The notes beneath the pieces are model-generated. The model was not told the DNA's origin and did not search any database. It saw nothing but the letters and a program-made list of their open reading frames with translations. Made by a program: the position numbers and the translations under genes. DNA of 20,469 nt from an uncultured Oscillospiraceae bacterium (GTDB taxonomy: Bacteria; Bacillota; Clostridia; Oscillospirales; Oscillospiraceae). Shown here piece after piece: positions 6,502 to 18,684 of this stretch. Within the stretch, counting starts at the first letter, position 1. Every line of letters starts with the position of its first letter. The stretch lies in the NCBI GenBank assembly GCA_944385305.1, contig CALWWS010000001.1:1-20469 (forward strand), read 5' to 3'.

Positions 6502-6602
6502 TTAATTTACAAAAGGCCGCCGGACACGGACACATGGTTGCGTGCTACAAACAGGCGGATCTGCTGCAATCGCCGCGAGAGAACGAGAAAGGGAGTGTAA
6601 TC

Positions 6603-7782
6603 ATGGAAAAAATGATGCAGGGCCAGGTCGCTATCATCACGGGCGGCGCGTCCGGTATGGGCGAGGCCACGGCCAAGCTGTTTGCCCAGGAGGGCGCCAA
6701 GGTGGTCATTGCCGACTACAACGAGAAGAACGCCCAGAAGGTGGCCGAAGAAATCAACGCCGCGGGCGGCATTGCCCGGGTGTATCCTCCCCTGGATCTC
6801 CGCCTGCCGCCAGGAGCACCTGCTGGACGGCAACGACCTGGGCACGGGGATGGAGCCCGACGTGGAAAATGTGGAGTTTATCAAGACCTTCTTCCACAAC
6901 ATGGTCTACCGCAAGGGGTACTACGGCGACCTGTTTGCCGAGGGCATGTCCCGGGCCATCGCCAAGCTGGGGAAGGACAAGTACGGCGAGAGCGTCTACC
7001 ACAACCGCATCTCCCAGCGGCTGGGGGGCAAGAAGGTGGCGCTGCCGGTGAGCGAGGAGGCCGCGTGGGGCCACTGCATGCACTGGCAGGGCCGTGGGTT
7101 TGAGGCCTCCTGCGACAAGCCCACCTGGCTGGCCATGAACATGCAGAACATGCTCAACACCCGGGACGCCCAGACGGTGGAGCACTTCCACTGCAAGATC
7201 GAGTACCACCAGGCGGCCCTGAAGGACCCCTACCACTGCCCCCATGTCATCGACGCGCTCATCCACACCCAGAACAGCGCCGAGATCAAGGACTCCCTCA
7301 TGAGCTGCGAGTGGCAGAGCCCCGATCTGTGGTGGCCTGAGATGGAGTCTCTGATGTACCAGGCCGCCACCGGCTATCCCATCACGCCGGAGGAGCTGGA
7401 CGAGGCGGCCTACCGCTCCAAGCTGCTCTTCCGGGCCATCCTGATCCGCAACTACGGTCGCACCCGCAAGATGGAGGTGGAGCAGATCTGGCACGTGATG
7501 CAGATCCCCGACAGCCTCAACGAGGTGGGCGACTGGAAGCAGTGGAACGAGATGGTCTCCCTGATGTACGAGGCCAGGGGCTGGGATCTGGAGACCGGCT
7601 GGCCCTACCGGGAAACCTATGAGAAGTACGGCCTGAAGGACGTGGCCGACGAGATGGAGAAGCTGGGCCTGCTGCCCAGGCACCCCGACAAGCGCTGGGA
7701 GGACTACGGGGAGGAGCCCTACAGCAAGTTTGTGGAGAACTGGAAGAAGGACACCATCGTCCTGCCCCCCAACGCCAAGTAA
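6603..7782 (+). pseudogene. Out-of-frame chimera: short-chain dehydrogenase N-terminus + aldehyde:ferredoxin oxidoreductase C-terminal half
   Basis: From ATG 6603 (preceded by AAAGGGAG) the frame reads as a classical SDR: VAIITGGASGMGEATAKLF (nucleotide-binding TGxxxGxG), then VVIADYNEKNAQKVAEEI and NAAGGIARV. Near 6775-6790 SDR similarity stops; its frame runs on as meaningless Gly/Pro/Arg-rich residues to a stop at 7103. In the frame shifted by one base, clear AOR-like sequence begins at about 6781 (CILPWISACRQEH) and continues to TAA 7782: GDLFAEGMSRAIAKLG, EEAAWGHCMHW and the closing YEARGWDLETGWP match the C-terminal domains of tungsten-containing aldehyde:ferredoxin oxidoreductases (~600 residues; about 330 remain). 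The N-terminal AOR domain with the cofactor and part of the Fe-S ligands is absent, as is the SDR catalytic Tyr-x3-Lys. Neither product can be functional. A fusion by deletion, or a misassembly, explains it. Confidence 0.8.
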
Positions 7783-7942: not shown

Positions 7943-8293
7943 ATGGGAACGCCCAAGATTTTTGAGAGTGAATACCGCTTTTGTCTGCTCCTGTGGGAGC
8001 ACGCGCCGGTCACCACCACCGATCTGGTCAAGCTGTGCCAGGAGCGGCTGGGCTGGAAGCGCACCACCACCTATACGGTCATCAAGCGCCTGGGTGAGCG
8101 GGGGGTGCTGAAGAATGAGGAGGGCCTGATCACCCCGCTCATCTCCAAGGAGGAGGCCCAGGTGTCCGAGATTGACGAGCTGGTGGACAAAAAATTCCAG
8201 GGCTCTCTGCCCGCCTTCATTGCGGCCTTTGCCCGCAGGCAGTCCCTGTCCCAGGCGGAGGTGGAAGAGATCCGGCGCATCATCGAAAAGTAA
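7943..8293 (+). CDS. blaI: BlaI/MecI/CopY-family repressor
   Basis: A 116-residue winged-helix repressor. Residues ~5-70 form the DNA-binding domain with the family pattern (E-x-x-F-x-L-L-L-W near 10-18; WKRTTTYTVIKRL at 38-50 as the recognition region, followed by ERGVL), and the C-terminal helices (~75-116) are the dimer part that BlaR1-type proteases cut. A strong AAGGAGG precedes ATG 7943. The promoter carries two perfect dyads, which fits autorepression. The next gene, 11 nt downstream, is the matching M56/BlaR1 sensor protease, so the pair forms a standard two-protein induction circuit. Target genes beyond its own unit cannot be identified from the window; no further GTCTAA-N4-TTAGAC dyad was noticed. 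Confidence 0.93.
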   Translation: MGTPKIFESEYRFCLLLWEHAPVTTTDLVKLCQERLGWKRTTTYTVIKRLGERGVLKNEEGLITPLISKEEAQVSEIDELVDKKFQGSLPAFIAAFARRQSLSQAEVEEIRRIIEK

Positions 8294-8304
8294 GGAGGCC
8301 CGCC

Positions 8305-10965
8305 ATGGAAGCCCTCTTTCTCAAGCTGGTCAACCTGAGCATCACGGCCGGCTGGCTTGTGCTGGCCGCCCTTGTGGTGCGGCTTGTGTTCCGCCGGGCG
8401 CCCAGGTGGATTTTCTGTCTCCTCTGGGGCCTGGTGGCCCTGCGTCTGGTGTGTCCCGTCTCCATCGAGAGCGCCCTGAGCCTGATCCCCAGCGCCCAGC
8501 CGCTGCCGCCGGAACTCCTCCATGCCGCCGCGCCCCAGACTGGCAGCGGCATGGGCGCAGCGGGCCAGGCGGCCGGCTCCGTCCTGGGGCAGTCCGCAGC
8601 GCCGGCGGCCCAGGCGGGCGCTGATGCCGCCCCGCTCTGGCCGTCTCTTCTCGCCGGGGTCTGGATCGCGGGGATGTGCGCCATGCTGCTCTACGCCCTG
8701 GCCAGCTCTCTGCTCCTGAAGCGCCGGGTGGCCACCGCAACCCTCCTGCGGGACAACATCCGGCAGAGCGAGCGGGTGGACTCCCCCTTCGTCCTGGGCC
8801 TCCTCCGCCCGGTCATCTACCTGCCCTACCGGCTGTCCGGCCAGGATCTGGAGTATGTCATCGCCCACGAGCAGGCCCACATCCGCCGCCGGGATCACTG
8901 GTGGAAGCCCCTGGGCTTTGTGCTCCTGTCCGTCTACTGGTTCAACCCCCTCTTGTGGGCGGCCTATCTTCTGCTGTGCCGGGATATTGAGGGGGCCTGC
9001 GACGAGCGGGTGATCCGGGAGATGGACCGGGAGGCGCGCCGGGGGTATGCCGCCGCCCTGCTCCGCTGCAGCATCCGCCGCCGGGGCGTTGCCGCCTGTC
9101 CTCTGGCCTTTGGCGAGACGGGGGTCAAGGGGCGGATCCGGGCGGTCATGGGGAAAAAGAAGCCCGCCTTCTGGATTGTGGCGGCGGCCCTGGCCGCGTG
9201 CGTGGCAGTGGCCGTGTGCTTTCTCACCGTTCCCCGCTCCTATGCAGAGGAAATCCGGGCAGACGGCCGCCTCTATGTGCGGCAGGGGGAGCCGGTGGCC
9301 TCCCTCCCGGCGGGCAGCTATGCCCTGGGCACCCTGGACAGCATCCGCCACCGCACTAGAGAGCACCCCGACCGGGACTTCTCCGGGGTCAACCTGGATG
9401 AAAAATATGCGGGCAGCCCGATCTACCAGAGCGGCGCGGCGGAGAATGTCATCTATCTGGAGGACTTTTCCGGCTTCTATATCCCCTTCCAGACGGAGGA
9501 GGAGGAAGATCCCGCGCCGGACGCCGCCGTCTCCACGCCGGAGCCGGTCACCTGGACCTATTCCCCCATGATGAGCGCCACCTGGCACGCGGGGTTCCAG
9601 TTCCAGTTTGATCTGAACTGCTCCCATATCGAGGCGTCCTGCGACCAGGGCCTGCTGTGGAACCCCAACGCCCAGGGGCAGCCCCGGGAAAAGGCTCTGC
9701 GCTTCCAGGCGAGCGAGCCGGTCTACTGGACGCCGGCGGGCGAGACGCTGGCCGACACGGCGCAGGCAGCCGCCGTCCATTTTACCGCGTATGACGGCGG
9801 GGAGGTCCTGCACCAGGGGACGCTCAGCCTGGTTCAAACCGGAACGGACAACGGCCAGAGCTTTTACCAGGCCACGCTGGAGGGCACGGATCTCCTCACC
9901 CTCCGGCAGCTGCCGGACGGCACCGGGGCGTATCTGACCGTCTCGGACAGCGCCGTCATTGTGGCCTGCTCCGACCTCAACCGCAACGGCGTGACGGAAA
10001 ACATCGTGGTACGAACCATCCAGCCCGACAGTCTCTACGAGCTTGCGGTGGAGGAGCGGGGCGAGAAACTCTGGTCGGCACAGGCCGCCACCGCCCACCA
10101 GGGCTGGGTCACTTTTATGCTGTACAGCGACGCAGACGGGGACTATCTGGTGGAGTATCTGCCCACCATGTACCAGGGCATCGCCAACTACACGTGTACC
10201 GTGTCCTCCCTGGAAGGGGGCGCGCCGTCGGTAAAGCAGGCGTGGTCGGTGGAGTATGAGCTGCCCACAGAGGAGACGGCCGAGATGGCCCAATTTGCCC
10301 GGGAGGTGGGGCTTCTCCTGCGAAACTGCACGGTGCTGCTCTCCACCGAGCAGGGCATCCTGGTGGATCAGCCCGCGGAGGCCTCCGGCCTGCCCCAGAT
10401 CTACCCCGTTCGGTTCGACCCCTCGGAAATTTTCTCTCCCCTTGACGGCCAGACCGCTCCCCTCAGCGCCAACGCCGCCCGGTTCCCGGAGGCTCCGGTG
10501 GAGCTCTTCTTCTCCAGCGGCACAGGGGGCTGGCAGACCGCCCTCACCCTCCAGCCCGACGGCAGCTTTACCGGCAGCTACTCCGACGCGGAGCTGGGGG
10601 GCGCCTCGCCGGAGTACCCCCAGGGGGTCTTCTACGTCTGCTCCTTCCAGGGCCAGTTCACCCAGATCCGGCAGTTCCGGGACAACGTCTGGTCCATGAC
10701 GCTGGAGAGCCTGCATACCGAAGCGCCGGAGGGAATCTCCTGGGTGGCGGATCAGACGCTCTATATCGCCTCGGAGGCCTGCGGCGTGTCGGGGGGCAGC
10801 ACCTTCCTCCTCTACGCCCCCGGCACACCGGCGGACGAGCTGCCGGCGGACTGCCGCAGCTGGTGGCCGGACGCCTGGCTCTGGCGCCGGGGGGAGGCGG
10901 AGCAGCTGAGCGGCTGGAGCCTGTGCAACCTGGACACCGGCGAGGGCTTTTTCCAGCGGCAATAA
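8305..10965 (+). CDS. BlaR1-type M56 membrane metalloprotease with large novel extracellular domain
   Basis: An 886-residue protein. Residues 1-~310 form the M56 module: N-terminal membrane helices (NLSITAGWLVLAALVVRLVF and the next), a helix around 110-130, then the zinc site H188-E189-x2-H192 (AHEQAH), the D-I-E229-G-A-C-D-E segment giving the third ligand, and a last membrane helix at ~289-310. BlaR1 proteins sense a cell-wall antibiotic outside and cleave BlaI inside. Here the ~575-residue extracellular part is not a penicillin-binding domain (no S-x-x-K/S-x-N/K-T-G set recognised); it contains an acidic/proline linker near residue 400 and two or more beta-rich regions of unknown family. 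It is preceded by AAGGAGG and an 11-nt gap from blaI. The ligand is unknown; location beside a van operon makes a cell-envelope signal likely. Confidence 0.88.
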   Translation: MEALFLKLVNLSITAGWLVLAALVVRLVFRRAPRWIFCLLWGLVALRLVCPVSIESALSLIPSAQPLPPELLHAAAPQTGSGMGAAGQAAGSVLGQSAAPAAQAGADAAPLWPSLLAGVWIAGMCAMLLYALASSLLLKRRVATATLLRDNIRQSERVDSPFVLGLLRPVIYLPYRLSGQDLEYVIAHEQAHIRRRDHWWKPLGFVLLSVYWFNPLLWAAYLLLCRDIEGACDERVIREMDREARRGYAAALLRCSIRRRGVAACPLAFGETGVKGRIRAVMGKKKPAFWIVAAALAACVAVAVCFLTVPRSYAEEIRADGRLYVRQGEPVASLPAGSYALGTLDSIRHRTREHPDRDFSGVNLDEKYAGSPIYQSGAAENVIYLEDFSGFYIPFQTEEEEDPAPDAAVSTPEPVTWTYSPMMSATWHAGFQFQFDLNCSHIEASCDQGLLWNPNAQGQPREKALRFQASEPVYWTPAGETLADTAQAAAVHFTAYDGGEVLHQGTLSLVQTGTDNGQSFYQATLEGTDLLTLRQLPDGTGAYLTVSDSAVIVACSDLNRNGVTENIVVRTIQPDSLYELAVEERGEKLWSAQAATAHQGWVTFMLYSDADGDYLVEYLPTMYQGIANYTCTVSSLEGGAPSVKQAWSVEYELPTEETAEMAQFAREVGLLLRNCTVLLSTEQGILVDQPAEASGLPQIYPVRFDPSEIFSPLDGQTAPLSANAARFPEAPVELFFSSGTGGWQTALTLQPDGSFTGSYSDAELGGASPEYPQGVFYVCSFQGQFTQIRQFRDNVWSMTLESLHTEAPEGISWVADQTLYIASEACGVSGGSTFLLYAPGTPADELPADCRSWWPDAWLWRRGEAEQLSGWSLCNLDTGEGFFQRQ

Positions 10966-11088: not shown

Positions 11089-11781
11089 ATGAGCGCTGAA
11101 ATTTTAGTTGTGGACGACGAGCAGGCCATCGCCGATCTGGTGGAGGTCTATTTGAAGAGCGAGGGGTACACCGTCCACAAGTGCTCCACCGCTGCCGACG
11201 CTCTGGCCGTTTTGGAGCGCACCCGGCTGGATCTGGCCGTTCTGGATGTGATGCTGCCCGATATGGACGGCTTCACCCTGTGCCGGCGTATCCGGGAGCG
11301 CCACCTGTTCCCCATCCTGATGCTCACCGCCAAGGTGGAGGACATGGACAAGATCACCGGGCTGACCCTGGGGGCGGACGACTATATCACCAAGCCCTTC
11401 AACCCCCTGGAGCTGGTGGCCCGGGTCAAGACCCAGCTGCGCCGGTACACCCGCTACAACCCGGCGGGCGCTCCGGAGTACGCCGGGGAGTACGACATCC
11501 GGGGCCTGCACATCTCCAAGGCCACCCACAAGTGCCTGCTCTTTGGGGAGGAGCTCTCCCTCACCCCCCTGGAGTTCTCCATCCTGTGGCACCTGTGCGC
11601 CAGGCAGGGGCAGGTGGTGTCCAGCGAGGAGCTGTTCGAGGCGGTGTGGGGGGAGAAGTTTATGGACAGCAACAACACGGTGATGAGCCACATTGCACGC
11701 CTGCGGGAGAAGATGCACGAGGACAGCCGCAGGCCCAAATTCGTCAAAACCGTCTGGGGGGTGGGGTATACCATTGAATAG
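11089..11781 (+). CDS. vanR: VanR-type OmpR-family response regulator
   Basis: A 230-residue regulator. The receiver domain (1-~120) has the acidic pair D9/D10, the phosphoacceptor D53 ([13 protein letters not shown]), the T of MLTAK and the K of ITKPF; the C-terminal winged helix has the OmpR pattern ([14 protein letters not shown] and VKTVWGVGY). The stretch [20 protein letters not shown] followed by [16 protein letters not shown] is highly typical of VanR of van operons. Start ATG 11089 is preceded by GGGAGGG; an in-frame ATG at 11029 lies on the promoter. The gene overlaps the kinase gene by 8 nt. It presumably activates the ligase and racemase genes downstream and itself. Confidence 0.92.
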
Positions 11782-12889
11782 GCCGGAAAACACCCCCCGC
11801 CTTCCCCCCGCGGGCAGGTTTGCCCTGCGGGCCTGGGGCTACTACCTGCTGTGCCTGGTGGCCTGGGTCACCATTGTGCTGGCCGTGTGCGCCCTGGGCT
11901 TTCTGGTGTGCAGGCAGTTTACCTGGTATGAGACAAATCCCCTCTACCACCTGCTCTCCTGGATGCGGGACTATATTGTCTTTGTGATCATCGCGGTGGT
12001 TTTGCTGGGGTGGGTGGTAATCAGCTACCGCTTCATCACCCGGCCCCACCAGCAGCTCCAGGCCCTGATCGACGCGTCGGCCCAGCTCTCCCGCCCCACC
12101 GGGGAGCCTATCCGCCTGCCCCCTGCCATGAAGCAGGTGGAGGATCAGCTCAACCTGATCCGGGAGCAGGCCCTGCGGGACGCCCGGGCGGCCCGGGACG
12201 CGGAGCAGCGGAAAAACGACCTGGTGGTCTACCTGGCCCACGACCTGAAGACCCCCCTCACCAGCGTCATCGGGTACCTCACCCTGCTGCGGGACGAGCC
12301 CCAGATCTCCCAGGAGCTGCGCGCCCGGTACACCGGCGTGGCGCTGGAGAAGGCCCAGCGGCTGGAGGATCTCATCAACGAGTTTTTCGACATCACCCGC
12401 TTCAGCCTGACCCATCTGGAGCTGGAGCTGCGGGACACCGACCTGAAGCGGATGCTGGAGCAGGTGTGCAGCGAGTTTGGGCCCGTGCTGCGCCAGCGGC
12501 AGATGACCTGTTCCCTCACCCTGCCCCCCGTGCTGCGGGCGGTGTGCGATCCGGGCAAGATGGCCCGGGTATTCGACAACCTGCTCAACAATGCCTGCCA
12601 CTACGCCTACCCCGGCACCACCCTGTATGTGACCGGGCGGGCGGAAAACGGACACGCTGTGCTCACCTTCCAAAACGCGGGGGCCACCATCCCGCCGGAG
12701 AAGCTCTCCCGCATGTTTGAGCAGTTCTTCCGCCTGGACGCCTCCCGGGGCACCCAGTCGGGCAACGCCGGGCTGGGCCTGGCCATTGCCCGGGAGATTG
12801 TGGAGGCCCACGGCGGCGCTATCACCGCCCACAGCCAGGCCGAGCAGGTGATTTTCACCGTCCTTTTCCCCCTCTCCCCCGGCCTGTAA
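11774..12889 (+). CDS. vanS: VanS-type sensor histidine kinase
   Basis: A 371-residue kinase if TTG 11774 is the start; TTG is chosen because the codons after it (NRPENTPR) lead straight into the first membrane helix and it overlaps vanR by 8 nt, a usual coupling. Layout: TM1 ~22-45, a short external loop ~46-66, TM2 ~67-84, then HisKA with phosphoacceptor H156 in [21 protein letters not shown], a segment strongly typical of VanS, and a HATPase with N-box [13 protein letters not shown] and G-box [12 protein letters not shown]. The external sensor of about 20 residues is far smaller than that of VanB-type kinases, so it likely senses within the membrane, by lipid II or bound glycopeptide, or through another protein. 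Function as glycopeptide-responsive kinase is by family and context. Confidence 0.9.
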
Positions 12890-12895
12890 GAAAAT
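12884..12895 (+). promoter_or_regulatory. Possible VanR box
   Basis: CTGTAAGAAAAT fits the published VanR recognition consensus TCGTANGAAANT at 8 of 10 defined positions. It overlaps the vanS stop codon and lies 123 nt before vanG. A poorer match (TTGCAAGGATTT) follows directly. No clear -10 is visible downstream, so the assignment is tentative. Confidence 0.3.
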
Positions 12896-12954
12896 TGCAA
12901 GGATTTCCCCAGACTTTTGCACCATCTCCGAAAGGAAAAGAAAAAACACGCCCC

Positions 12955-13002
12955 GCCCTGTTCTGCTACCATTTTGGACAGCAGAACAGGGCATTTTTCT
13001 TT
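12955..13002 (+). terminator. Terminator/attenuator between vanS and vanG
   Basis: Perfect 13-bp stem (GCCCTGTTCTGCT 12955-12967, complement 12980-12992, 12-nt loop) followed by ATTTTTCTTT to 13002. It ends at the vanG ribosome binding site (GGGAGG 13003-13008). CTCCGAAAG (12926-12934) could also pair, with one mismatch, with CTTTGGGAG (12999-13007) and cover that site. Confidence 0.8.
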
Positions 13003-13017
13003 GGGAGGTTTTGGATT

Positions 13018-14055
13018 GTGAAACGAATCGTCTTTTTCTTCGGGGGCCGCTCCACAGAGCACACGGTGTCCCTCCAGTCGGCTCACGGGGTGCTCACCCA
13101 CCTGGACACCGGCCGCTACACTCCGCTGATGGTGGGCATCACCCGGGAAGGGCGGTGGCTCTACTACACCGGGCCGGTGGAGGACATCCCCTCCGGCCGC
13201 TGGCAGGAGCACTGCTGCGCCCCCTGCACCCTGTCCCTGAACCCGGAGGTGCGCCAGCTGCTCCTGCTGGACAGGACGGGGGCCTGTCTCCCCTTTGACG
13301 CCGCCTTCCCCCTGCTCCACGGGAAAAACGGGGAGGACGGCACCCTCCAGGGCCTGCTGGAGCTGGCGGGGGTGCCCATCATCGGCTGCGGCGCCCTGTC
13401 CAGCGCCCTGTGCATGGACAAGGACCGCGCCCACAAGCTGGCCGCCCTGGCGGGGGCGTCGGTACCCCCCAGCCGTCTGTTCCGGCGGGGTGCCCCCCTG
13501 GAGCAGATTGCCGCCGGGGCGGCGGAGCTGGGTCTGCCCCTGTTTGTCAAGCCGGTGCGCGCCGGCTCCTCCTTCGGGGTCACCAGGGTGACCGCCATGG
13601 AGCAGCTGCCCCAGGCGGTGCAGTCCGCCTTTGCCAACGACCGGGAGCTGCTGCTGGAGCGGGCCGTGCCCGGCTTTGAGCTGGGCTGCGCCGTGCTGGG
13701 CAGCGGGGAGCTCACCGTGGGGGTGCCTGACGAGATCGCCCTCTCCCAGGGCTTTTTCGACTTTGAGGAGAAGTACACCCTCAAGACCTGCGCCATCCAC
13801 TGTCCCGCCCGGGTCTCCCCGGAGACGGCCCGCCGGGCGGCGGAGCTGGCCAAGCAGGTCTACCGGGCCCTGGACTGCAAGGGCTTTGCCAGGGTGGACT
13901 TCTTCCTCACCCCGGAGGGGGAGCTGGTATTCAACGAGGTGAACACCATCCCCGGCTTCACCCCCCACAGCCGCTATCCCAGCATGATGCAGGGCATCGG
14001 CCTGGACTACTCCGCCCTCATCACCCGCATCATCCAGACGGAGGTGGTGGCATGA
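13018..14055 (+). CDS. vanG: VanG-type D-alanine--D-serine ligase
   Basis: A 345-residue ATP-grasp ligase. It shows the Ddl-family N-terminal FFFGGRSTEHTVSLQSA (~6-22), PLLHGKNGEDGTLQGLLEL, the ATP-grasp KPVRAGSSFGVTRV, an omega-loop segment starting E251-K252-Y253 (EKYTLKTCAIHCPA) and the metal-binding EVNTIPGFTPHSRYP at the end. EKYxLKx and the Phe-rich N-terminus are characteristic of VanC/E/G-type D-Ala:D-Ser ligases rather than D-Ala:D-Lac enzymes. The product, D-Ala-D-Ser, replaces D-Ala-D-Ala in peptidoglycan precursors and weakens vancomycin binding. The start is GTG 13018, fixed by GGGAGG at 13003-13008. The stop overlaps the peptidase gene (ATGA). Neighbouring peptidase and racemase genes support the assignment. 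Confidence 0.92.
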   Translation: MKRIVFFFGGRSTEHTVSLQSAHGVLTHLDTGRYTPLMVGITREGRWLYYTGPVEDIPSGRWQEHCCAPCTLSLNPEVRQLLLLDRTGACLPFDAAFPLLHGKNGEDGTLQGLLELAGVPIIGCGALSSALCMDKDRAHKLAALAGASVPPSRLFRRGAPLEQIAAGAAELGLPLFVKPVRAGSSFGVTRVTAMEQLPQAVQSAFANDRELLLERAVPGFELGCAVLGSGELTVGVPDEIALSQGFFDFEEKYTLKTCAIHCPARVSPETARRAAELAKQVYRALDCKGFARVDFFLTPEGELVFNEVNTIPGFTPHSRYPSMMQGIGLDYSALITRIIQTEVVA

Positions 14056-14777
14056 ACGGGGACGCGCTGGCCCTGGTCAACCCCCGCCACCCCCTGGCGG
14101 AGGAGGGGCGGCCCCACCTGGCCGCCCCGGACGCCCGGTTCCCCCGGGTTCTCATGGAGCGCCGGGCAGCGGCCCGGCTGCGCGCCTGCATCGCCCGGGT
14201 GGGCGGGCAGGGGCAGATCGTCCCCGTCTCCGGCTTTCGCAGCCGGGCGGAGCAGCAGGCCATCTGGGAGAGCACCCTGGCCGCAGAGGGGGAGGCCTTC
14301 ACCCGGCGGTACGTGGCCCTGCCCGGGTGCAGCGAGCACCAGACCGGCCTTGCCATCGACCTGGCCCTAGCCGCAGAGCACATCGACTTCGTCCGCCCCC
14401 ACTTTCCCACCCAGGGGGTGTGCGGGGCCTTCCGGCGGGCCGCTCCCCGCTTCGGCTTCATTCTGCGCTACCCTCCCCACAAGCAGGCCATTACCTCCAT
14501 CGCCCACGAGCCCTGGCACTTCCGCTATGTGGGCGCACCCCACGCTCTGTTCATGCAGGAGCGGGGGCTGTGCCTGGAGGAGTACCTGGAGCTGGTGCAC
14601 GCCCACCCCTGGGGAACGCCGCCCCTACGTCTGGACACCCCGGCGGGGGCATACCAGGTGGGCTACCTGCCCGGGGACGCCCCCGCCCCGCCCCCGGAGG
14701 AGGGGTGGCACATGCAGCCGGACAACTGCGGCGGCCGGGTGCTCATCAGGCGGCACGAGAGGAGGCGGGCGGTATGA
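14052..14777 (+). CDS. vanXY: VanXY-type D,D-dipeptidase/D,D-carboxypeptidase
   Basis: A 241-residue soluble M15-family peptidase with SGFRS, the zinc motif S-E-H96-Q-x-G-x-A-I-D103 and E153-x-x-H156 (HEPWHFRYVG), i.e. ligands H96, D103, H156 and catalytic E153. There is no signal peptide or membrane anchor, which separates VanXY from membrane VanY. In VanC/G operons such enzymes hydrolyse D-Ala-D-Ala and trim D-Ala from UDP-muramyl-pentapeptide, removing vancomycin-sensitive precursors. About 50 C-terminal residues (AYQVGYLPGD to the end) form an extra small domain seen in relatives. The gene overlaps vanG (ATGA 14052-14055) and the acetyltransferase gene (ATGA 14774-14777), so all are translationally coupled. 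Confidence 0.88.
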   Translation: MNGDALALVNPRHPLAEEGRPHLAAPDARFPRVLMERRAAARLRACIARVGGQGQIVPVSGFRSRAEQQAIWESTLAAEGEAFTRRYVALPGCSEHQTGLAIDLALAAEHIDFVRPHFPTQGVCGAFRRAAPRFGFILRYPPHKQAITSIAHEPWHFRYVGAPHALFMQERGLCLEEYLELVHAHPWGTPPLRLDTPAGAYQVGYLPGDAPAPPPEEGWHMQPDNCGGRVLIRRHERRRAV

Positions 14778-15286
14778 GCCTGCGGGCGTGGCTCACCGAC
14801 TTCTCCAAGGGGGATAATCTGGGCCTGTTCTGGTGGCTCTACCGGCGGCGCAGCCGGGCAAAAAGCCGGCTGGCCCGGGACATAGCTACCTTTCTCCTCA
14901 ACCGCTGCGCCCACCGCCACGGAGGCTATGTGGGCCCGGGGGCGGTGATCCAGGGCAGGCCGGAGCTGCCCCACGGCCTGCACGGGGTGTTCATCTCCCG
15001 CTACGCCGTGGTGGGGCCGGGCTGTCGGATCTACCAGAACGTCACCATCGGGGAGGTCAACCGGAAAGCGCCCGTCATCGAGGACGGGTGCTGGATTGGG
15101 GCGGGGGCGGTGCTGGTGGGGGACATCCGGGTGGGCAGGCATGCCCGCATCGGCGCGGGGGCGGTGGTCAGCCGGGACGTGCCAGACTGCGCCACGGTGG
15201 TCAGCCAGCCTCCCCGGGTCATGGAGAGGGGGGATGGGCATGGCGTGCAGTATGATGGACACAGGCCGGGCCTGGCGGGAGATTGA
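14774..15286 (+). CDS. Hexapeptide-repeat (CysE-like) acyltransferase inside the van operon
   Basis: A 170-residue left-handed beta-helix acyltransferase. After a basic, amphipathic N-terminus, residues ~50-165 carry hexapeptide repeats ([IV]-G-x-x-[AV]: YVGPGAVIQG, VVGPGCRIYQ, NVTIGE, VIEDGCWIGAGAVLVG, IRVGRHARIGAGAVV). It resembles small serine acetyltransferases, and a histidine (LHGVFI) falls where CysE has a catalytic His, but the GGT...HPKI segment of CysE is absent (here EVNRKAPVI), so serine O-acetylation is only one possibility. It is coupled to vanXY by ATGA and overlaps the racemase gene by 47 nt. Its position, beside a VanT lacking the acyltransferase-3-like membrane domain, suggests an acyl-transfer step tied to serine or cell-wall metabolism; that is inference. 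Confidence 0.85.
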   Translation: MSLRAWLTDFSKGDNLGLFWWLYRRRSRAKSRLARDIATFLLNRCAHRHGGYVGPGAVIQGRPELPHGLHGVFISRYAVVGPGCRIYQNVTIGEVNRKAPVIEDGCWIGAGAVLVGDIRVGRHARIGAGAVVSRDVPDCATVVSQPPRVMERGDGHGVQYDGHRPGLAGD

Positions 15287-16412
15287 CCTGGAGGCGCTCT
15301 CCCACAACGCCCGCTCCCTCCGCGCCGCCCTCTCCCCCGGCTGCCGGCTGATGGCGGTGGTGAAGGCGGACGCCTACGGCCACGGGGCCCTCCCCGTGGC
15401 CCTGCGCCTGGGGCGGGAGGGGGTGGACGCCTTCGCCGTGGCCTGCCCGGAGGAGGGGATTGCCCTGCGCCGGGGCGGGGTACGGGGGGAGATCCTGGTG
15501 CTGGGGTGTACCCCGCCGGAGCAGGCCCCCCTGCTGGCCCGGTGGGCGCTCACCCAGGCGGTGGCGGACGGGGCCCACGGCCGGGCTCTGTCCGCCCGGG
15601 GGGTGCCCCTGGCGGTCCACCTGGCCCTGGACACGGGGATGCACCGGCTGGGCATCCCGGCGGAGGACCGGGCGGCCATCGGGGAGATGTACCGCCTGCC
15701 CAACCTGCGCGTCACCGGGGTATTCTCCCACCTGTGCGTGTCCGACAGCCTGGAGGAGGCTCACGCCGCCTACACCAAAGCCCAGCTGGCGCGCTTTGCC
15801 CGGGCGGTGGCCTGGATGGACGGGGCGGGCTATCCCCCCGGCCAGACCCACATCCAGGCCAGCTACGGCATCTGGAACCTGCCCCCTCAGCCCTGGAGCA
15901 TGGCCCGGGCGGGCATCGCCCTCTACGGGGTGACCAGCGCCGGGGAGGCCACCCGGAACAGGCTGGATCTGCGCCCCGTGCTCTCCCTGCGCGCCCGGGT
16001 AACCTCGGTGCGCACCCTGGCCCCCGGGGAGGGGGCGGGCTACGGCCTGGCCTTCCGGGCCCAGCGGGAGACCCGGCTGGCGGCGGTGAGTATGGGCTAC
16101 GCCGACGGGCTGCCTCGCTGCCTGGCCGGGCAGGGCGGGCAGGTACTCCTCCACGGGGTGCGCTGCCCCATGGCGGGCCGGGTGTGCATGGACCAGCTGC
16201 TGGCCGACGTGACCGCCGTCCCCCAGACCGCGCCGGGGGACGTGGTCACCCTCATCGGAGCGGACAGCGGGCAGACCATCCGGGCGGAGGAGGTGGCCCG
16301 GCGGTGCGGCACCATCACCAATGAGCTGCTCTCCCGCCTGGGCCCCCGGCTGCCCTGCGTCCCCCTGCCTGAGGCCCGTTACCCGGCAAAGCCTTCTGTA
16401 TCCGCACTGTAA
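15240..16412 (+). CDS. vanT: VanT-type serine/alanine racemase, soluble catalytic part only
   Basis: A 390-residue PLP-dependent racemase (Alr fold). It has the PLP lysine K42 in VVKADAYGHG, the substrate-pocket region HLALDTGMHRLGI, the second catalytic Tyr268 in GAGYGLAF, and GRVCMDQLLADV. Near the end, T-I-T-N361-E replaces the T-I-N-Y-E of alanine racemases: this Asn in place of Tyr354 of Geobacillus Alr is the change associated with serine racemase activity in VanT. VanT of known VanC/G operons carries an N-terminal multi-helix membrane domain; here there is none. Start 15240 is chosen for GAGAGGGGGG just upstream; 15234 is also possible. It overlaps the acetyltransferase gene by 47 nt. 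It should supply D-serine for VanG. Confidence 0.88.
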   Translation: MACSMMDTGRAWREIDLEALSHNARSLRAALSPGCRLMAVVKADAYGHGALPVALRLGREGVDAFAVACPEEGIALRRGGVRGEILVLGCTPPEQAPLLARWALTQAVADGAHGRALSARGVPLAVHLALDTGMHRLGIPAEDRAAIGEMYRLPNLRVTGVFSHLCVSDSLEEAHAAYTKAQLARFARAVAWMDGAGYPPGQTHIQASYGIWNLPPQPWSMARAGIALYGVTSAGEATRNRLDLRPVLSLRARVTSVRTLAPGEGAGYGLAFRAQRETRLAAVSMGYADGLPRCLAGQGGQVLLHGVRCPMAGRVCMDQLLADVTAVPQTAPGDVVTLIGADSGQTIRAEEVARRCGTITNELLSRLGPRLPCVPLPEARYPAKPSVSAL

Positions 16413-16413
16413 C

Positions 16414-16442
16414 TTGTCCTGCCGGCCAATATAGGGTAAAAT
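16414..16442 (+). promoter_or_regulatory. Promoter of the SLH/PstS-like gene
   Basis: TTGTCC (16414-16419), 17-bp spacer, TAAAAT (16437-16442), starting right after the vanT stop and 50 nt before the ATG at 16492. It suggests that the surface protein gene is not only transcribed from the van operon. Confidence 0.65.
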
Positions 16443-16491
16443 AAGAGCGGATCAGTAGGATAAATCTTCCATGTGGAAAGGAGTGACCGGT

Positions 16492-18684
16492 ATGAAAAAG
16501 CTGCTGGCCCTGTGCCTGTGTCTGGCCCTGCTCTGCCCCGCCGCCCTGGCTGTACAGACGGGGGAGGCGCCGTGGACGCGCAGCGAGGGGGACGGGAGCT
16601 ATGTGACCATCCGCCTGGAGGCCCCGGAGTGGGCGGGGCTGGACTGGTCGGAGCAGAGGCTGCTGTGCGTGCGCTACGCAGACACCAAGCAGCCGGTGGC
16701 CCTCACCAGCGACTATCTGGGCAATTGCCTCTTCGCCACCGTCCCCGCCCGGGATGCAGACCGGCCCCTGGAGGTATTTCAGGGGGAGGAGCACCGCTTC
16801 CCCGACTGCATCACCGTCTGGGAGGGCAACGAGTACTACAACGAGTTCTACGGCGGCGGGGATCTCTATCTCCGGGGCGTCGTCCAGGGGGACGAGGCGG
16901 GCAACCTGAACGCCGAGGACACCCTCACCCGGGCGGAGGCCTTTGCCCTGCTTGTCCGCCTGCTCTCCCTGGAGCCGGGGGATGATCCGGGCTATGCCGA
17001 CGTGGCGCCGGGGGACTGGTACTATGACGCTGTCTCCGCCGCCCAGGCCGCCGGCATTGCCGCGGCGGACGAAACCTTCAACCCCAACCGCACAGTGACC
17101 CGGGGGGAGTTTACCGTGATGCTGGCCCGGGCCATGGAGGCGGTGGGCTGGCTCACCATCCCGGAGGATACGGAGAACTACACCTTCAACACTGCCCTGG
17201 CCGACGCGGACTCCCTCCCCGACTGGGCCGTGGGGGCCTACGCCGCCTTTGACGGGCGCAATGTGGTGGGCCTCGTCTCCCTGGAGGACACCGGAGAGAC
17301 GGACCCCTCCGACGGCGGGCCGGTCTACGCCTACCTGGCCCGGTGGGACACCCCCGCCCAGCGGGGGGAGGTCATCCAGTTTATCAACCAGGCCCGCAAG
17401 ACCCTGCCCTGGTACCCCACCCAGCAGGCCATCGACTGGGGCTTTGACCAGGAGATGCCGGTGATCGACGGCTCCACCTCCACCTACCCCTATACCGTGG
17501 CGGTGTACGGCGCCCTGTTCGCCAATTCCGGCAGCCACCCCCAGTATCCCCAGAGCCACTCCAAGAGCTTTGACTCCTACGACCGGCTCATCAGGGGGGA
17601 GGCAGACATCCTCTTCGCCTCCACCAAGCCCTCCCAGGACACCCTGGACAAGGCCAAGGCCGCCGGGGTGGAGCTGGAGCTCATCCCCATCGCCTACGAC
17701 GCCATGGTGTTCTTTACCAACGGGGACAACCCGGTGGAGGGACTCACCATGGAGCAGATACGCAGCGTATATGTGGATAACGCCTATACCAACTGGAATC
17801 AGCTGGGCGGGCCAGACGCCCGGTTTATCCCCTACTGCCGCAACCGGGACAGCGGCAGCCAGGCCCAGATGGAGGAGTTCTTCCTCCAGGGGGCGGAGAT
17901 CCACCCGGCCATCCAGGAGGAGACCACCTCCACCGCCATGGCCTCGGTGCTCACCGACGTGGCCGACGCCCGGTCGGACGACCCGCTGACCTACGCCCTG
18001 GGGTACAGCATCTACTACTACTATCTCCAGTCCACCCCCATCCTGCTTGCCGCGGACGAGCTCAAGCTGCTGGCGGTGGACGGGGTGTACCCCACCGACC
18101 AGACCATCGCCGACGGCAGCTACCCCCTGGCGGGGTACAACTACGCGGTGATCCGCTCCGACCAGCCGGAGGACTCCCCGGCCCGGCGGATGGTGTCCTT
18201 CATGCTCAGCCGCCAGGGACAGCAGTGCGTGGCAAGCGCCGGCTTCGGCCCCCTGTCCAACGACCCCAGGGCGGACTTTGAGGCGGCCAATCCGGGCTGG
18301 ACGGTGGCCGACATCTTCCCCGCCGACGACTTCGGCTACATGGCGGTGGCTCAAAACCAGGCAGGGGATACCCTGCGGGCGGTCTATCTCCAGCGCCGCA
18401 CAGCTCAGTGGGGGGCGCTCACCCAGGCCGACTGCACCGTGGGCGGGGCGGAGGAGCCCCTCACCGCCGCCCTGCTGGGGGGGACGGACAGCACCCTGGT
18501 GTTCGGCTGGGCGGAGGCGTCAACCAGCGCCCAGCTGCGCCTGAGCTATGAGGGGGGCGCCCAGACCCAGATCGTCTATGTCAGCGGCCCCTACTCCTTC
18601 CTGCTCTCCGGCAGCCCCAGGGTGGAGAAGCTGGAGCTGCTTCAGGACGGGACGGTGATTGCCGCTGTGGACTTTGACCGCTGA
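16492..18684 (+). CDS. SLH-domain surface protein with PstS-like phosphate-binding domain
   Basis: A 730-residue exported protein. Residues 1-20 are a Sec signal peptide (MKKLLALCLCLALL, cut after PAALA), without a lipobox. An N-terminal beta region (~21-135) is followed by two SLH repeats (~140-192: LTRAEAFALLVRLL...GDWYYDAVSAAQAAGI; ~193-260: VTRGEFTVMLARAM...LPDWAVGAYAAF), which anchor proteins to secondary cell-wall polymers. Residues ~322-600 form a PstS-type periplasmic-binding fold with V-I-D-G-S-T-S-T-Y-P, the loop that binds oxyanions, plus NWNQLGG and RDSGSQAQMEEFF. A C-terminal beta domain (~600-730) is unassigned. The start has AAAGGAG before 16492. Binding-protein domains anchored by SLH rather than lipid are uncommon. 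No pst transport genes are adjacent. A strong bidirectional terminator follows. Confidence 0.85.
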   Translation: MKKLLALCLCLALLCPAALAVQTGEAPWTRSEGDGSYVTIRLEAPEWAGLDWSEQRLLCVRYADTKQPVALTSDYLGNCLFATVPARDADRPLEVFQGEEHRFPDCITVWEGNEYYNEFYGGGDLYLRGVVQGDEAGNLNAEDTLTRAEAFALLVRLLSLEPGDDPGYADVAPGDWYYDAVSAAQAAGIAAADETFNPNRTVTRGEFTVMLARAMEAVGWLTIPEDTENYTFNTALADADSLPDWAVGAYAAFDGRNVVGLVSLEDTGETDPSDGGPVYAYLARWDTPAQRGEVIQFINQARKTLPWYPTQQAIDWGFDQEMPVIDGSTSTYPYTVAVYGALFANSGSHPQYPQSHSKSFDSYDRLIRGEADILFASTKPSQDTLDKAKAAGVELELIPIAYDAMVFFTNGDNPVEGLTMEQIRSVYVDNAYTNWNQLGGPDARFIPYCRNRDSGSQAQMEEFFLQGAEIHPAIQEETTSTAMASVLTDVADARSDDPLTYALGYSIYYYYLQSTPILLAADELKLLAVDGVYPTDQTIADGSYPLAGYNYAVIRSDQPEDSPARRMVSFMLSRQGQQCVASAGFGPLSNDPRADFEAANPGWTVADIFPADDFGYMAVAQNQAGDTLRAVYLQRRTAQWGALTQADCTVGGAEEPLTAALLGGTDSTLVFGWAEASTSAQLRLSYEGGAQTQIVYVSGPYSFLLSGSPRVEKLELLQDGTVIAAVDFDR

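Follow-up and report, generated by a model that had tools for sequence, protein, structure and literature searches.

A soluble hexapeptide acyltransferase gene in the slot of the VanT membrane domain of a VanG-type operon

The closest described relatives of the system considered here are VanG-type operons with a fused VanT, as in C. difficile and E. faecalis, and operons of the VanL type. In the VanL type, VanT is split into VanTm and VanTr, and a separate membrane protein is kept. A free-standing racemase by itself is known already, and NCBIfam has models of VanT 'catalytic subunits'. The membrane part of VanT is an acyltransferase-3 (AT3, or TmAT) domain, a ten-helix membrane fold, and proteins of this kind are described as modifying acceptors that lie beyond the membrane (PMC12423673). 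There, the function of the domain in VanTG is called largely unrecognised, and reported vanT resistance mutations are said to fall in it. Transport of L-Ser has been suggested as the role of the membrane part of VanT, with its function given as unknown and experiments called for (PMC9558356). In C. difficile, attempts to recapitulate the resistance of evolved vanT mutations did not succeed, and one evolved clone carried, alongside, a mutation affecting maa, a putative maltose O-acetyltransferase, which may be chance (PMC11326576). Here we describe a VanG-type operon in which a gene for a soluble hexapeptide acyltransferase, hereafter HEX, lies in the slot of this membrane domain. It is found in a stretch of 20,469 nt from an uncultured Oscillospiraceae bacterium (contig CALWWS010000001.1), and the whole of this stretch is called the window.

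The window operon is a real variant of the VanG operon that recurs among gut bacteria. Its genes run from 11089 to 16412, all on the + strand, in the order vanR-vanS-vanG-vanXY-HEX-racemase, and the last four overlap:

11089..11781, + strand: vanR response regulator (NF033117, 382.7 bits against a cut-off of 350)
11750..12889, start uncertain, + strand: vanS histidine kinase (top match NF033091 VanS, 350.5 bits, cut-off 400)
13018..14055, + strand: vanG-type D-Ala-D-Ser ligase (NF000091, 476.7 bits against a cut-off of 495; GTG start after GGGAGG)
14052..14777, + strand: vanXY D,D-peptidase (PF02557, 99.5 bits; top NCBIfam match vanXY_G, 202 bits, cut-off 500)
14774..15286, + strand: HEX, a left-handed beta-helix acyltransferase of 170 aa without a membrane part (PF00132, 51.8 bits, cut-off 27)
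15240..16412, + strand: free-standing VanT-type serine racemase (NF033131, vanT-G-Cterm, 498.6 bits against a cut-off of 460; nearest PDB entry 4ecl)

The stop of the ligase and the start of vanXY share an ATGA overlap at 14052, as do the vanXY stop and the HEX ATG at 14774. HEX and the racemase overlap by 47 nt from ATG 15240, with 32-53 nt possible given the in-frame ATGs at 15234, 15252 and 15255. These coordinates bear out the preliminary description of this DNA, which had placed HEX before the racemase with a 47-nt overlap and coupled to vanXY. Its statement that the racemase is free-standing also holds: ahead of ATG 15240 its frame stays open for only 97 codons, which run over HEX in a different frame, there is no membrane domain, and the protein passes the vanT-G-Cterm model and has 4ecl, named serine racemase, as its top PDB match. 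In the racemase alignment, the catalytic Lys is present in 100 of 100 sequences and the serine-type Asn (TNELL) in 97 of 100, the window protein included; this Asn stands at the position of Asn696 of VanTG. The window ligase, whose best model is VanG at the score listed, groups inside the VanG-type ligases on the ligase tree. An in-frame fusion of HEX to the racemase was considered and rejected; some racemase frames open far upstream, but the frames differ in L032, the sole locus compared by coordinates (L and G numbers are our labels for loci and genomes). Separate membrane proteins also occur in the surveyed loci, e.g. L202, L208, L210 and L212. In two HEX operons, L040 (8476-9578) and L042 (8476-9577; the same as L158), the racemase is split over two or three frames, with HEX and the ligase open, which reflects either a broken gene or a sequencing error.

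The occurrence of HEX and of the VanT-type AT3 membrane domain (hereafter MEM) was surveyed around VanG-type ligases. In an order sample of 394 genomes, the VanG ligase model scored at least 447 bits at 35 loci, the window included, and the next best locus scored 426 bits; ligases of 426 bits and lower were taken for ordinary ligases. We examined 36 loci, namely 34 of the 35, the 426-bit locus and the window, and found HEX in 10, MEM in 17, both in 0 and neither in 9. A class sample of 391 genomes yielded 29 ligase loci at E <= 1e-128, and the 27 that were new had MEM in 25 cases, HEX in 0 and neither in 2. Partial MEM matches at contig ends (L142, L235, L249) were counted as MEM, and L252, at a contig end, was left out. 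The 62 pooled ligase-seeded loci thus comprise 10 with HEX, 42 with MEM, 0 with both and 10 with neither (Fisher 1.7e-6, a value that ignores kinship). At the 10 loci with neither, a racemase adjoins the ligase in 4 (L150, L163, L164, L166) and none does in 6. At L168, L169, L171 and L173 (G283, G358, G382 and G352), the VanG-type ligase has neither a racemase nor HEX nor MEM nearby, and these ligases form a separate clade on the ligase tree.

Named genome contigs were also scanned for HEX itself. Among the best 80 of 126 loci, 57 have a van ligase or racemase in the vicinity of HEX, and the other 23 are lone copies. One HEX operon, L085, belongs to Flavonifractor sp. An112, a culturable commensal. 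HEX usually precedes the racemase; in L146, L148, L088 and L105 it comes ahead of the ligase and is separated from the racemase. In the order sample, HEX was found at E 1e-40 in 10 of the 394 genomes, which are exactly the ten with HEX operons, and no lone copy was seen among the at most 9 first-look candidates scored per genome. Each of the ten belongs to the 35 whose VanG-type ligase scores over 447 bits (hypergeometric 8e-12, ignoring kinship). HEX therefore occurs in van operons more than by chance, given the share among the named loci and the ten of ten order genomes. In a family sample of 300 genomes, 32 had HEX; two of these gave no locus to inspect, and the 30 loci inspected were van operons in 26 cases and lone copies in 4 (L303-L306). 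One in-frame stop each was noted in the lone copies L303 and L306 and in the operon copy L296, and two of the four lone copies look decayed.

The VanT-type AT3 was not found elsewhere in any of the 10 HEX-operon genomes by searches at E 1e-30, the threshold used for MEM in all genome searches (the window genome, G000, is 80% complete). Meanwhile, the 16 ligase places in lone-HEX genomes include 11 with MEM, three with a racemase only (L199, L209, L213), one at a contig end (L211) and one HEX operon (L201, the same as L107). Two genomes, G428 and G433, have a free racemase and a distant HEX, with no MEM found. One genome, G427, carries a vanG operon with a fused VanT (L198), a second with HEX (L201) and a lone HEX (L069). 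Exclusion of HEX and AT3 is thus strong at the level of the operon and not at that of the genome. A survey of vanG operons for mutual exclusion had been suggested beforehand, and its outcome supports exclusion within operons: none of the 62 ligase-seeded loci has both, and 2 of the 57 HEX-seeded operon loci do. Clustering of the flanks (4.5 kb up and 3 kb down, 107 loci, 14 largest clusters) brought out no gene shared by the HEX loci, the largest HEX-only cluster covering 3 of 54 loci; a transporter travelling with HEX was sought among the same clusters and rejected. The two largest clusters, which hold HEX and MEM loci alike, were read as vanR and vanS by position only. No common theme was found in the neighbours of lone HEX genes among 20 frames from 16 of the 23 loci, 12 of them with a Pfam family; some of these frames may not be genes.

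The exchange has recurred. A quick tree built from 123 ligases, all distinct (54 with HEX, 53 with MEM, 1 with both and 15 with neither), requires at least 12 switches between HEX and MEM by parsimony. Its strongly supported branches, which are few, by themselves call for 4 or more changes of the HEX label. Counted over all branches, there are 14 independent pairs. The pairs on strongly supported branches point on average 3.3 times in the expected way, 0.6 times to no difference and 0.0 times in the opposite way (rounded; a few of 200 pairings had one), and the sign test falls short of significance because such pairs are too few. For 94 loci with full racemases, 9 switches are needed on the racemase tree and 10 on the ligase tree; therefore, the catalytic domain goes with the ligase, and what changes is the partner next to it. 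Spread of HEX and the racemase as one module was rejected on this ground, the two trees needing about as many switches. The same slot differs in content within genus g22: it holds a fused MEM in G107 and G160, but HEX in G021 and G235, at an identity of 72-73% between the ligases and 70-71% between the racemases. A further g22 genome, G315, has HEX too. The HEX tree (83 rows) mixes operon and lone copies, with at least 7 changes. The change counts on these trees do not separate gain from loss.

HEX is a member of the hexapeptide (left-handed beta-helix, LbH) acyltransferase superfamily, as PF00132 scores above its cut-off and the LbH fold is found in the predicted model and by Foldseek. The AlphaFold monomer, built with a 27-row alignment, has a mean pLDDT of 85 and an unordered C-terminal tail, which varies in length and sequence across the aligned homologues. 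Serine acetyltransferases make up all of the best 50 of 114 Foldseek matches at E <= 0.001, and the nearest solved structures by sequence are serine acetyltransferases also. A protein search yielded 1545 homologues, and 26 among the matches listed were aligned with the window protein. Across the 83 distinct HEX sequences of the surveyed loci, the PHGLHG motif, Y52, H67, H70, E94, A99 and C106 show no variation. HEX is thus a defined, conserved family; it is predicted to be a CoA-dependent acyltransferase of the serine-acetyltransferase fold, with H67 as the candidate base, and it is expected in the cytosol.

HEX departs from the serine acetyltransferases CysE and EpsC at the presumed active site. 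Catalytic roles have been described for Asp143, His158 and His193 of E. coli CysE (PMC13256707), a numbering that agrees with the E. coli chain aligned to HEX. The equivalent of His158 is kept as H67 in 83 of 83 HEX sequences; those of Asp143 and His193 are Tyr (Y52) and Ala (A99), again in 83 of 83. In 9 readable CysE proteins from the searched genomes, the Asp143 position holds Asp or Glu. The GGTGKD loop of CysE is missing from HEX (9 HEX rows aligned with 9 CysE). In addition, HEX scores below the curated cut-offs for cysE (73.2 bits, cut-off 210.65), EpsC (86.1, cut-off 150) and PRK11132 (60.1, cut-off 397). A CysE model search of 18 genomes revealed a separate CysE-type gene in 9 of the 10 HEX-operon genomes, seven above the cut-off and two that miss it with 161-167 bits (G331, G033); none was found by this search in the 80%-complete window genome. 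These separate genes, the low scores and the two altered catalytic positions out of three reject HEX as a relocated housekeeping CysE, so the case raised in the preliminary description, a cysteine-synthesis CysE moved here by chance, does not apply. Serine O-acetylation, which that description had offered as a candidate job, is disfavoured because of the Tyr and Ala at the Asp143 and His193 positions.

The membrane domain that HEX would stand in for keeps an AT3-like Arg/His pair. Of 50 rows of the VanT membrane domain one has a gap; wherever a residue is present, the His position is His (49 of 49) and the Arg position is Arg or Lys (49 of 49). The pair has the same 11-residue spacing as R14/H25 of OafB, matched by motif and spacing rather than by alignment to OafB, in which both residues have been called essential (PMC9833829). 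At six loci (L167, L170, L175, L206, L207, L248), MEM follows the ligase and no racemase was found nearby in the stretch fetched; therefore, the AT3 protein has a role of its own. The VanT-type AT3 was found neither in the window operon nor in the rest of the 80%-complete G000, which has one generic AT3 gene elsewhere.

We consider it likely, at about even confidence, that HEX took over the job of the VanT AT3 membrane domain by non-homologous replacement. VanR-VanS would switch on the coupled vanG, vanXY, HEX and racemase genes; the ligase and the racemase would supply D-Ala-D-Ser, VanXY would remove D-Ala ends, and HEX would use acyl-CoA to acylate an acceptor of importance during the formation of D-Ser ends. 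HEX and AT3 would both be active acyltransferases sharing this acceptor. Because HEX is expected to be cytosolic and AT3 acceptors are described as lying outside, the shared acceptor should cross the membrane; our guess is a lipid- or UDP-linked D-Ser precursor of the wall, on which HEX would act before export and AT3 at or after export. That VanG-type resistance includes acylation of a D-Ser-bearing wall precursor, perhaps at the D-Ser hydroxyl, by either the VanT AT3 or HEX, is put forward tentatively and is rather doubtful. More generally, acyl transfer plausibly belongs to the VanG pathway; that AT3 is naturally and recurrently exchanged for an unrelated soluble acyltransferase favours acyl transfer over transport of serine. 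The swap of acyltransferase types proposed in the preliminary description thus gains support from the position of HEX in the AT3 slot, the recurrence of the swap and the distinction of HEX from the CysE of the genome, but HEX and AT3 do occur together in some genomes, and there are free racemases that lack both partners.

Several observations weigh against such a replacement. AT3 acceptors are described outside the membrane (PMC12423673), and HEX is expected in the cytosol. The loci L082 and L083, which have identical ligases and are the two operon loci with both genes, are ordered ligase-vanXY-MEM-racemase-HEX. MEM is present in 13 of the 23 lone-HEX genomes, and 8 of the 23 are without a VanG ligase above the cut-off, the other 15 having one. 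A free racemase occurs with neither HEX nor MEM found anywhere in the genome in G132 and G172, and with a distant MEM in G048 and G067, two of the 9 genomes whose van locus has neither. The ligase-seeded rows alone need only 4 switches, and the independent pairs on strongly supported branches number only 4 (2 in the ligase-seeded set). A rival explanation is that of independent roles, in which the free racemase manages without AT3, HEX performs another envelope or metabolic acylation, its gene having settled in the operon, and the exclusion is a matter of history. The lone HEX genes in unrelated neighbourhoods, the co-occurrence with AT3 in lone-HEX genomes, the free racemases with neither partner and the clustering of HEX and AT3 states on the ligase tree all favour this explanation. 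It fits less well with the repeated switching on both the ligase and racemase trees, the exchange of the same slot within genus g22, the differing operon orders and the rarity of lone copies (none in the order sample and 4 of the 30 family loci); we regard it as possible but somewhat unlikely.

HEX could instead be a working serine O-acetyltransferase that converts L-Ser or D-Ser to O-acetylserine, balancing or detoxifying the serine pool upon racemase induction. Serine is the substrate of the racemase, the closest relatives of HEX by sequence and fold are serine acetyltransferases, and the general-base His is retained as H67; however, the Tyr and Ala substitutions, the missing loop, the scores far under the curated cut-offs and the separate CysE-type genes make this improbable. 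To a structural or regulatory partnership with the free racemase, like that of CysE with the pyridoxal phosphate (PLP) enzyme CysK, in which catalysis would be secondary, we give very little credence: HEX adjoins and overlaps the racemase gene, and the same fold has a known PLP-enzyme partner in the cysteine synthase complex (PMC13256707), but the C-terminal tail, the part used by CysE, is variable and unordered in the HEX model, and the four loci with HEX before the ligase separate it from the racemase. Least credible of all is that the AT3 domain is an L-serine importer only, for which HEX substitutes by trapping serine in the cell. The transporter role proposed for the membrane domain (PMC9558356) speaks for it; against it stand the conserved Arg/His pair, the flank clusters, none of which showed a transporter gene that HEX loci share, and the consideration that acetylserine should be no racemase substrate.

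Elsewhere in the window, a BlaI-type repressor (PF03965) and then an 886-aa BlaR1-like M56 protein, whose first third is covered by PF05569, lie at 7943-10965, directly upstream of vanR-vanS. At 6534-7782, a short-chain dehydrogenase is matched over its first ~50 residues only before the sequence passes, with a change of frame, into the later part of an aldehyde ferredoxin oxidoreductase, a junction that is either a deletion scar or an assembly chimera. Downstream of the racemase, 16471-18684 encodes one protein with an S-layer-homology domain and a phosphate-binding-protein-like domain, preceded by a promoter-like site at 16414.

No description of HEX in van operons was found in the open-licence literature, judged mostly by titles and abstract openings. 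If HEX does replace the membrane domain, an additional step would exist in a clinically relevant resistance pathway, together with a possible drug target. HEX, as a small and probably purifiable enzyme, offers a handle for finding the acceptor and the function of the AT3 domain of VanT.

Compared with CysE and EpsC, HEX shares the left-handed beta-helix fold and the general-base His, and these enzymes are its nearest relatives by sequence and structure; it differs in its short N-terminus, the replaced Asp143 and His193 equivalents, the lack of the loop, the invariant PHGLHG motif and its van operon context. HEX occupies the operon slot of the AT3 domain of VanT and, like it, is predicted to transfer acyl groups from acyl-CoA, whereas its fold is different from the ten-helix membrane fold. 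The free-standing racemase is reminiscent of the VanL type (NCBIfam model vanT-L-cat); in contrast to that type, with its separate membrane protein, no such protein was found in the window system. The window operon resembles the VanG-type D-Ala-D-Ser operons with a fused VanT of C. difficile and E. faecalis in its vanR and in a serine racemase that belongs to the VanT-G catalytic family, and, by best model matches that lie below their cut-offs, also in vanS, the VanG-type ligase and VanXY. Unlike in those operons, the place of the VanT-type AT3, which was found in neither the window operon nor its genome, is occupied by the HEX gene.

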